Assembly (NCBI GenBank): GCA_025360015.1
Contig: JANYCZ010000003.1
Coordinates: 1 to 64,000, forward strand
Direction of reading: 5' to 3'
DNA: 64,000 bases
From: Verrucomicrobiota bacterium
GTDB lineage: Bacteria > Verrucomicrobiota > Verrucomicrobiia > Verrucomicrobiales > Verrucomicrobiaceae
Within the stretch, counting starts at the first letter, position 1; each line of letters starts with the position of its first letter. Made by a program: the position numbers and the translations under genes. Below are positions 40,188 to 42,353 of the stretch, piece by piece. The notes beneath the pieces were generated by a model. That model saw only the letters and a list, made by a program, of their open reading frames with translations, was not told the DNA's origin and did not search any database.

Positions 40188-40224
40188 GCATTGCCAGCAA
40201 GGACTTCCTGCTTTTAATGAGAAA

Positions 40225-41709
40225 ATGCTGACCCGGCTTCGAATCAAAGGCTTCAAAAACCTCTCCGACGTGGAGGTTCTTTTTGGCCCTTTTACCTGCA
40301 TTGCAGGTGCGAACGCCGTGGGAAAATCCAACCTGTTCGATGCCATACGCTTTTTGTCTCTGCTGGCAGACATGAAGCTGGATGAGGCAGCCCGCTCAAT
40401 CCGAGCTGAAGATGATCGCAATGGTGATGTCCGTTCATTGTTCACCAACGACGGCTACGCCATAGCCAAAGAAATTGAATTCGATCTGGATATGATCGTT
40501 CCTCGCGAGGCAGTGGATGAGCTTGGCCAGACAGGGGAGGCGTCCACGACCTGCCTCAATTACAAGCTTAGGATCGGCTATCGTGACAGCTCTGATGACA
40601 AGCGCCAGCTGGGCGAGCTTGAACTGCTGTTTGAAGAGCTGACCTACATTACTCATAACGAAGCGAAAAAGCGTCTCCGGTTTCATACTTCCAAGGCTTG
40701 GCTGGAGTCGGTCATACAGGGTCGCAAAACCAGCAAGCTTATCTCAACGCTTTCCGAGGGTGGAAAAACATTTGTGGTGCTTCATCAGGATGGAACCTCA
40801 CGCAGCGGACTCAACAAACGAGGCCCAGGTTACAAACGAGTGGCGCGCCAACTTCCTCGAACGGTGCTTTCTGCGGGGGATGCGGACAGTCCCACGGTAC
40901 TTTGTGCCCGTGTCGAATTGCGCAGTTGGGAATTGCTTCAGTTGGAACCATCTGCGATGCGGGAAAGTGACAGCATCAATCAATCCACAGGTGTGGACGC
41001 CAGTGGTGCGCACATGGCCGCGACACTGTATGAACTCGGCCGAACGCCGATATTTCCTGGGAAACCCGCCGATCCTGAAGCCGCCTATCAACGCGTGAGC
41101 AACCGTCTGTCTGAACTTCTGGGGGACGTTCGTGGCGTCGGCGTTGATGTGGATGAAAAGCGGGAGCTGCTTTCTCTCTACTTGGTTGATCGCATGGGTG
41201 TCCATACAGCAGCCCGTTCGCTTTCCGACGGCACCCTAAGCTTCATCGCCCTGGTCATCAAACAGATGGAAAGCCGTGGGAACCGGCTGCTTTGCATGGA
41301 GGAACCTGAAAACGGAATTCATCCTCGCCGTATTCCTGCAATTCTAGATCTGCTTCAGGACATTGGAGTGGATGTTTCATCTCCTGTGGACGATGCGAAT
41401 CCTCTGAGGCAGATCATCGTCAATACCCATTCTCCTTCAGTAGTGCAACAGGTGCCTGACGAGTCGATTCTATTTGCCGAGACCGTTCCATCTTGGACTC
41501 CAGGCCGAAAAACCTTCGAGCGGCTGGTTTTTTGTATTCTGCCTGATACGTGGCGTTCTAAGGGCAAAGATGACGAAATGATCGTCAAAAAAGCTTCGCT
41601 GCTCGCATATTTGCGGGTGCCAGGAAAAAGGCGTGTATCCGAAGAAGATGATCACGAGGATCGTCGTGTTATTGACAGTGCCTATGTGCAGACGCTGCTA
41701 GAACTATGA
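40225..41709 (+). CDS. SMC/RecF-like AAA ATPase of a putative defence operon
   Basis: 494 residues from ATG 40225. An ABC/SMC-type ATPase of the AAA_21/AAA_15 group: IKGFKNLSDVEVLFGPFTCIAGANAVGKSN (Walker A at 28-36), a long helical insertion (about 60-300), signature ARSLSDGTLSFIAL (about 330), Walker B RLLCMEEPENGIHP (about 354), and the H-loop NTHSP (about 400). It overlaps the next gene by 4 bp (ATGA). ATPases of this kind paired with TOPRIM nucleases form anti-phage systems such as PARIS and Gabija. The AT content is higher than that of neighbours. Confidence 0.87.
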   Translation: MLTRLRIKGFKNLSDVEVLFGPFTCIAGANAVGKSNLFDAIRFLSLLADMKLDEAARSIRAEDDRNGDVRSLFTNDGYAIAKEIEFDLDMIVPREAVDELGQTGEASTTCLNYKLRIGYRDSSDDKRQLGELELLFEELTYITHNEAKKRLRFHTSKAWLESVIQGRKTSKLISTLSEGGKTFVVLHQDGTSRSGLNKRGPGYKRVARQLPRTVLSAGDADSPTVLCARVELRSWELLQLEPSAMRESDSINQSTGVDASGAHMAATLYELGRTPIFPGKPADPEAAYQRVSNRLSELLGDVRGVGVDVDEKRELLSLYLVDRMGVHTAARSLSDGTLSFIALVIKQMESRGNRLLCMEEPENGIHPRRIPAILDLLQDIGVDVSSPVDDANPLRQIIVNTHSPSVVQQVPDESILFAETVPSWTPGRKTFERLVFCILPDTWRSKGKDDEMIVKKASLLAYLRVPGKRRVSEEDDHEDRRVIDSAYVQTLLEL

Positions 41710-42353
41710 ACGACAAGCAGATGATGACGCGCCGGTTTACATTGCTTGCTGAGGGATCTGGAGACAAGGCTTTGATGCCGATTCTGGAATGGCTTTGGAG
41801 AGAGCATCGTCCTGACGAACTGTGCATAGGGCAGTTTGCCGATTTGGAATTCAGCAATCTCAAAAGCCGTACGTTGGAAGACAAGCTCATACCAGCGCTG
41901 GATCTGTACCCTTGCGATCTTCTGTTTGTTCATCGGGATGCCGATAGAGAGGGACTAGAAAAGCGCACGCAGGAGATTCAGGCCGCAATGGCTTCCACAT
42001 TTGCCCCAAACATACGTCCTCCGGTAGTTTGCGTTATTCCTGTGCGCATGAGTGAGGCGTGGATGTTGTTCAACGAAAAAGCGATACGAAAAGCGGCAGA
42101 AAATCCCAATGGATCCATGTCTCTGGATATTCCTGCTTTACCAAAGGTGGAACAGATACCCGATCCAAAGGTAAAGCTGCGCGAATTGTTACTGAAAGCG
42201 TGCGGCCTTCCTCCTCAACGTCTTCGTAGCTTTAAGCCCTCCCGCGCGGCAAGACTGGTCACCGAGTTTATCGACGATTTTTCACCGCTCCGTCAACTTG
42301 CGGCCTTTGCACGAATGGAGGCTGAGTTCAAGAAGGTGAAATTTAAGTCCTAG
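41706..42353 (+). CDS. TOPRIM/DUF4276-like protein, partner of the ATPase
   Basis: 215 residues. TOPRIM-type acidic residues are visible: E16 in LLAEGSGDKALMP and D78/D80 in LLFVHRDADRE, i.e. Glu, then Asp-x-Asp. The segment PVRMSEAWMLFNEKAIRKAAENPNGSMSLDIPALPKVEQIPDPK is typical of the DUF4276 group. It is probably a metal-dependent nuclease whose activity is gated by the ATPase. Translation is coupled to the ATPase by the ATGA overlap. It converges with the next gene with only one base between stop codons. Confidence 0.82.
   Translation: MNDKQMMTRRFTLLAEGSGDKALMPILEWLWREHRPDELCIGQFADLEFSNLKSRTLEDKLIPALDLYPCDLLFVHRDADREGLEKRTQEIQAAMASTFAPNIRPPVVCVIPVRMSEAWMLFNEKAIRKAAENPNGSMSLDIPALPKVEQIPDPKVKLRELLLKACGLPPQRLRSFKPSRAARLVTEFIDDFSPLRQLAAFARMEAEFKKVKFKS

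Follow-up and report, generated by a model that had tools for sequence, protein, structure and literature searches.

Several described systems couple an ABC ATPase to a Toprim nuclease. In PARIS, as described in PMC12409363, AriB is bound by a hexamer of AriA, is set free when a phage protein acts as the trigger, and then cuts tRNA; PARIS-like modules can be embedded in BREX (PMC12839542), and Toprim toxins neutralised by ATPases are known from the NetFlax work (PMC10440598). For HEC-04, a fused ATPase-Toprim protein, protection against T4 and T5, and none against T7 or lambda, has been reported (PMC12111858). For the OLD protein BpOLD, metal A is assigned to E400, D455 and D457 and metal B to E404, T506 and E508, and K562 mutants are stated to retain nicking only (PMC6755086). 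HEC stands for Hma-embedded candidate (PMC12988326, PMC12111858), the source given in reference lists being the preprint doi 10.1101/2024.01.29.577857. A gene pair of related layout was analysed here in a 64,000-nucleotide stretch of a Verrucomicrobiota bacterium (assembly GCA_025360015.1, contig JANYCZ010000003.1, positions 1 to 64,000; the window). It is read as an HEC-01-type, PARIS-like two-gene immune module, a reading to which a probability of about 60% is given.

Assignment of the pair and comparison with related systems

Both genes lie on the forward strand and were assigned from the open reading frames (ORFs), Pfam, PADLOC, conservation and structure models. Gene A (40225..41709, +, 494 aa) encodes an SMC/Rad50/OLD-type ABC ATPase and overlaps gene B (41706..42353, +, 215 aa), which encodes a small predicted Toprim protein and divergent DUF4276 relative, by the four nucleotides ATGA, the B start codon lying within the A stop region. 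These coordinates and the overlap had been given exactly in a preliminary description of this DNA, made from the letters and a list of ORFs; its statement that the pair fits no known system did not survive comparison with the PADLOC models. HEC-01A matched A with 9.2e-84 (residues 1–432 of 494) and HEC-01B matched B with 1.4e-20 (residues 11–209 of 215), the only HEC-01B model to fit it well, as the next one followed at 3.8e-8. Both protein matches being present and the genes being adjacent, which we take to be a defining feature of HEC-01, the pair is on sequence grounds a member of this already catalogued candidate defence system. HEC-01 is named in one genome survey (PMC12724379); no experimental report on it was found in the open-access literature (bioRxiv, and with it the source preprint, was not covered), and the literature on HEC-05, HEC-06 and Toprim proteins provided context and nothing on HEC-01 itself.

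A is an SMC/Rad50-type ABC ATPase head with intact motifs, as the preliminary description had recognised. Among 75 aligned sequences, the copy in the window included, the motif residues were conserved in 74 or 75: the Walker A motif GxNxxGKSN (G28–N36, 40306..40332, +; G28, N30, G33, K34, S35 and N36 each 75/75), the signature LSDGT (333–337, 41221..41235, +; L333, S334 and G336 75/75), the tandem Glu of Walker B in EEPENG (E359–E360, 41299..41304, +; 75/75 each) and the H-loop in NTHSP (H402, 41428..41430, +; 74/75). P361, N400 and P404 were also found in all 75. The start at 40225 is supported because conservation begins right at the N-terminus (T3 in 73/75, R4 and F10 in 75/75). Pfam returned AAA_21 (3.3e-24), and the structure model (predicted local distance difference test, pLDDT, 88.8) matched the heads of SMC and Rad50 proteins with Z values up to 20.6, and PtuA from Septu and from retrons with a Z of about 17; the top Foldseek match was retron Ec83 PtuA (2.1e-11). 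Membership in MADS3 was rejected, NF047739 scoring 116.9 bits against a cut-off of 420.

The likeness to PARIS consists in a separate ABC ATPase and a (predicted) Toprim effector in one operon, in an alignment of B to AriB over 183 residues, and in a match of A to a PADLOC AriA model (3.2e-26) that is far weaker than that to HEC-01A. B differs from AriB, however, in having no match up to E 10 in Pfam to DUF4435 (PF14491), presumably the AriB family, and a comparison of the B profile with one DUF4435 protein, weak because a single sequence was used, reached E 0.065 over 16–19 columns only. OLD, GajA of Gabija and HEC-04 share the combination of ABC ATPase and Toprim, BpOLD also the two-metal layout, but are single-chain fusions, whereas the pair in the window comprises two ORFs. 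The Gabija helicase GajB is absent here; the next gene is convergent and belongs, as judged by eye, to the Gfo/Idh/MocA family. With AbiL/RloB the pair shares the theme of a Toprim toxin neutralised by an ATPase, as in the NetFlax work (PMC10440598), but B had no RloB (PF13707) match in Pfam up to E 10, and the B profile reached E 0.097 against RloB, again over 16–19 columns only and in a weak comparison based on three sequences. A resembles PtuA of Septu, but B had no HNH match in the Pfam listing, that is, nothing of the PtuB type.

The DUF4276-like segment noted in the preliminary description proved to be a real similarity that stays below the curated cut-off (PF14103, 24.2 against 30.2 bits, E 4.5e-5). 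B is tied to this family because one relative (L158) matches both PF14103 (2.6e-21) and the B profile. In canonical DUF4276 loci read from the window's own phylum, an A-like ATPase gene (profile E ≤ 1e-14) adjoins the DUF4276 gene in 30 of 30 cases (L130–L159), and the 23 aligned proteins share with B a first motif, EGxxE/D, and an invariant Glu, which lies in HEFEAL as compared with RMxEAW in B. They differ in that the third strand is mostly followed by D-x-Y rather than D-x-D/E (D82 in 23/23, Y84 in at least 90%), and their catalytic chemistry may differ. In the alignment of L130–L155, D-x-Y with a conserved HEFEAL prevails, L149 having D-x-D. In the wide sense, DUF4276 was found in 57 of 387 genomes of the window's own phylum at E ≤ 0.001, 43 of them above the curated cut-off. 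No mechanistic report on DUF4276-type pairs was found in the open-access literature (bioRxiv not covered).

Predicted active site of B and the acids at positions 16 and 80

The model of B (pLDDT 92.1) has the Toprim strand order, with E16 just past strand 1 and D78 and D80 just past strand 3. In 77 aligned sequences the candidate catalytic residues were conserved as follows. The first Toprim acid, E16 (41751..41753, +), assigned to metal A, is D in 66 of the 77 and is coupled to position 80. D20 (41763..41765, +), which its +4 spacing equates with E404 at metal B in BpOLD, is conserved in 76, the remaining sequence having E. D78 of the D78-x-D80 motif (41937..41945, +), which is DxE in most relatives, is invariant, as are E117 in VRMxEAW (42054..42056, +), the equivalent of BpOLD E508 by order and by its TxE/MxE spacing (M115-x-E117 in B), and K155 (42168..42170, +), the candidate equivalent of BpOLD K562. 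All elements of the OLD/Toprim two-metal site, namely the first acid, the +4 acid, DxD/E, the Glu of the helical domain and the Lys, are present in B, the correspondence with BpOLD being one of order and spacing and not of superposition. The preliminary description was right in recognising a Toprim-type Glu and Asp-x-Asp, here Glu16 and Asp78-x-Asp80, but the acid types at 16 and 80 are not fixed, most relatives having Asp16 and Glu80.

Structural alignment (VIA-align) of B as a second look against 998 chains was consistent with this assignment in its coverage. Among the 50 chains listed of the 998, the three longest alignments were those to AriB (8ux9_A, 183 residues, Z 6.4, root-mean-square deviation (rmsd) 5.5; 8v46_D, 177 residues, Z 5.9, rmsd 5.6) and to the C-terminal Toprim region of OLD (6nk8_A, 168 residues, Z 6.8, rmsd 4.8). 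The possibility that B is a Rossmann-like protein devoid of nuclease activity draws on the same alignments, as MogA and lumazine synthase were placed at equal or higher Z, with receivers close behind; the MogA match stood first at Z 7.4, and no Z reached 8. Foldseek with the B model gave no match at E ≤ 0.001 in the PDB, and the B profile met the canonical DUF4276 profile at only E 0.044, a weak match; these results, too, count against the reading as an HEC-01-type immune module. The other 47 alignments cover only 95–130 residues, however, and the five acidic positions and one Lys conserved at catalytic spacing, together with the coevolution of positions 16 and 80, make a non-nuclease B very improbable. 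The residue evidence decides the Toprim assignment better than the structural alignments do; several converging lines strongly suggest the Toprim fold and argue for B being a Toprim nuclease. The viral libraries likewise gave no Foldseek match to the B model at E ≤ 0.001, phmmer and hmmsearch found nothing convincing for B among the PDB sequences, and a match to a proline-rich 28 kDa antigen (0.0029) was put down to chance.

Positions 16 and 80 were occupied by E/D in 11, D/E in 65 and D/Q in one of the 77 sequences, with neither D/D nor E/E in any. The copy in the window is E/D and two sister copies in its genus are D/E. Thirteen further sequences fit the pattern, five as E/D (L004, L052, L164, L165 and L166) and eight as D/E (L003, L005, L006, L037, L162, L163, G406 and L158); against strict coupling stand L017, the D/Q sequence, and the distant L170, which has E with Ala at position 80. 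Of 23,005 column pairs, 16/80 ranked first by normalised mutual information and second by the value after average product correction (APC). On a tree of 71 concatenated A–B pairs, built with the two columns removed, each position needed 6 changes, of which branches with good support require at least 4, and both positions changed together in every pair counted, in about six flips, one of them in the genus of the window. The sign test on the tree had four pairs to work with, from starred branches; all were concerted (p 0.125), but the number is too small to reach significance, and the Fisher p of the association (1.7e-13) ignores relatedness. The absence of E/E and D/D among the 77 sequences is a stronger argument than the sign test, though relatives are not independent.

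An interpretation whose chances we regard as even is that E…DxD and D…DxE are mirror states flipped only in concert, the two acids sharing one metal that needs one Glu and one Asp; the flips may also tune the choice of metal or substrate. If this were true, single mutants should be dead and the double swap alive, and the family would offer a fitness valley within a catalytic centre that has been crossed repeatedly in nature. A literature search for Toprim proteins with a printed 'DxE' returned nothing relevant, its one result being an unrelated review.

Distribution and genomic setting

Relatives of B were collected by a pattern scan with one genome per species, which gave 330 relatives, of which 80 loci were kept; these fall into Verrucomicrobiota, Chloroflexota, Cyanobacteriota, Pseudomonadota, Planctomycetota, Bacteroidota and other phyla. 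In 78 of the 80 loci A is the gene immediately upstream of B and shares its strand, the two exceptions being L065, in which A is adjacent but convergent, and L045, in which the contig begins just upstream of B. A chance origin of the pair is excluded by the number of relatives and by this constancy. The overlap measured 4 nt in 37 of 80 pairs (the window, L003–L006 and 75 kept loci), and the distances of A and B were correlated (Mantel r 0.84 over 71 pairs; none of 2000 permutations gave as high a value), showing that A and B are co-inherited. The operon and its logic of an ATPase with a Toprim nuclease, as first proposed, are supported.

The pair sits in tight junctions between a kinase-receiver gene and the Gfo/Idh/MocA gene, as had been noted. 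A 37-nt leader (40188..40224, +) reaches from the kinase-receiver stop codon to the ATPase start; it is alike in the three carriers named below and was not seen in the seven empty sites. Between the B stop and the end of the convergent gene lies 1 nt. The reported AT-richness was borne out, with a GC content of 0.527 (A) and 0.504 (B) against 0.641 and 0.623 in the neighbours, and a GC content at third codon positions of 0.53 for the pair against 0.78–0.80.

The claimed insertion was examined in 40 genomes of the same family, 38 of which had the Gfo gene, 30 of these places being made into loci. The kinase gene was the neighbour in 10 genomes including that of the window; the other 20 loci had no kinase match within the flank examined. 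The pair was present in three of the 10 genomes with both flanks (that of the window, G415 and G406) and absent from seven. In three of the seven the aligned gene ends are only 7–13 nt apart, and in the other four they are separated by 169–486 nt of other sequence. The three carriers and the short gaps in empty sites therefore mark a real presence/absence slot with clean edges, which, judging by its contents, appears to collect different inserts. Two empty sites, L120 and L121 (G417 and G408), contain GC-rich, partly related-looking sequence of 169 and 338 nt, respectively.

Protein identity between the window and G415 was 88% for A, 75% for B and 94–95% for the flanks. The ratio of nonsynonymous to synonymous divergence (dN/dS) among the three carriers was about 0.10 for B and 0.03–0.06 for A; positive selection on B was rejected on this basis, B being merely less constrained than A. 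The synonymous divergence (dS) of the pair exceeded that of both flanks in five of six gene comparisons (A 1.11–1.62; B 1.45 and 1.36, but 0.67 for G415–G406). Sequence exchange at the slot is possible but is not claimed, because codon bias differs.

The neighbours of relatives were surveyed with three ORFs on each side of 38 loci (223 ORFs). PADLOC batch scans covered 185 of these (111 + 74), made up of 31 loci and three further single ORFs; the seven loci omitted, from Nostocales, Hormoscilla and Caldilineaceae, nearly duplicate others. Since the batch scan does not name the matching member, 30 ORFs picked mainly by size and position were scanned singly. Seven of the 30, in five loci, gave a hit at 1e-15: the Mokosh genes MkoA and MkoB (L020), a DpdE/ZorD-like helicase (L055), HmaB (L087), an RtcR-CARF-like protein (L073), and PglZ and PDC-S03 (both L074). 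Batch matches that were not assigned to ORFs included BrxD, SngB, PDC-S05, a second HmaB match and others. At L074 (361-14153, a Pseudanabaena metagenome-assembled genome) the pair lies inside BREX, 11 nt upstream of pglZ, in the order brxX, A, B, pglZ, brxL and then brxA on the other strand. This copy, the one beside Mokosh genes at L020, the presence/absence slot and the low GC content all favour the immune-module reading.

Several of these surveys weigh against the pair being an immune module. The remaining 23 single scans gave no hit at 1e-15, and enrichment of defence genes is not claimed. No match to B was found in 50,697 phage records, and no relative of B in viral contigs in two pattern scans that reached near relatives only; of 72,556 plasmid records one matched B, with 45% identity, on a 1.2-Mb replicon. 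Nine Chloroflexota loci, eight of them titled Caldilineaceae, share the gene directly downstream, which is RecJ-like by Pfam run on the copy in L031, and in Nostocales five to seven loci have neighbours in common, one example being a TldD/PmbA-like gene (L032); the recurrence of neighbours suggests vertical inheritance in both groups. That the pair serves genome maintenance or a stress response and is not primarily anti-phage, like the archaeal OLD-family ATPase Cran1 (PMC12796447), would accommodate these recurrent neighbours, the nine RecJ-side genes, the lack of phage matches and the single plasmid match. It seems improbable in view of the rare and patchy occurrence of close relatives (6 of 387 genomes of the own phylum, one a distant hit; for the phylum of G420, 9 of 244, six of which gave no more than a distant hit), of the variable slot in the genus of the window, and of the copies that lie within BREX or close to genes of Mokosh and Hma. 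The anti-phage role first proposed is supported as probable, but the recurrent neighbours and the missing phage matches, which had not been foreseen, weigh against an exclusively mobile defence role.

The RecJ-side loci of Caldilineaceae/Anaerolineae are L031, L035, L052, L058, L062, L067, L071, L080 and L087. Six loci have relatives of the upstream gene that is PD-(D/E)XK-like in L035, and these surroundings possibly form a fixed DNA-repair or defence neighbourhood.

Within the window, the kinase-receiver gene (Pkinase and Response_reg) and TMEM43 were identified by Pfam and the other near neighbours by eye; they look like housekeeping genes. With an E limit of 10, neither the profile of A nor that of B matched any other ORF. 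A PADLOC batch scan of these 54 ORFs gave 70 families; among the 25 listed were PD-T4-6, the C3a189 kinase, RecD and mad6 with one member each, and no Hma gene, which distinguishes this locus from an Hma-embedded one. The kinase-model matches are read as catching the neighbouring Ser/Thr kinase. MkoA (1.3e-38) and mad3 (1.3e-34) were also listed, with one member each, the matching ORFs not being named. Positions 1–96 match 5S rRNA (Rfam RF00001), cut off by the start of the window. Elsewhere in the same genome lies an RloB-family (Toprim-related) gene (L128, G000:C8:200194-200784), and this genome may hold a second pair of the ATPase-Toprim type.

Proposed mechanism and its meaning

By analogy with PARIS, A would oligomerise, watch for a signal of infection and hold B inactive. 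B would be a stand-alone Toprim nuclease with a two-metal site formed by E/D16, D20, D78, D/E80, E117 and K155. A trigger would cause an ATP-dependent rearrangement of A that frees or activates B, and B would then cut nucleic acid, with host tRNA or some other cellular RNA as the most likely target, so that growth would stop before the phage could multiply. That the proteins form a complex, that A sequesters B, the trigger, the substrate and the abortive outcome are all inferred from such described systems.

RNA is preferred over DNA as the substrate only because of the two-gene architecture. That B might instead cut DNA, as an OLD/Gabija-like nuclease gated by the ATPase that degrades phage DNA or nicks the host chromosome, is a possible but rather unlikely alternative. 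In its catalytic layout B comes nearest to BpOLD, which cuts DNA (PMC6755086), the best match of the A profile among PDB sequences is the OLD-family 6p74_A (1e-8, residues 1–42 only), and some Caldilineaceae copies lie between a PD-(D/E)XK-like gene and a RecJ gene; two genes with a small stand-alone Toprim protein resemble AriB, a tRNase according to PMC12409363, and the sequence itself is indecisive between the two substrates.

DUF4276-type pairs are widespread, and direct mutants for the HEC-01-type module proposed here follow from its conserved two-metal site, from its stable ATPase partner and from the swap at positions 16 and 80. What is new beyond the catalogue is the complete catalytic set together with the paired Glu/Asp swap, which makes the family testable by a few point mutants. 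If the swap were confirmed, it would illustrate in compact, natural form how catalytic residues can be coupled, and would provide a sequence signature for the active members of a divergent nuclease family.

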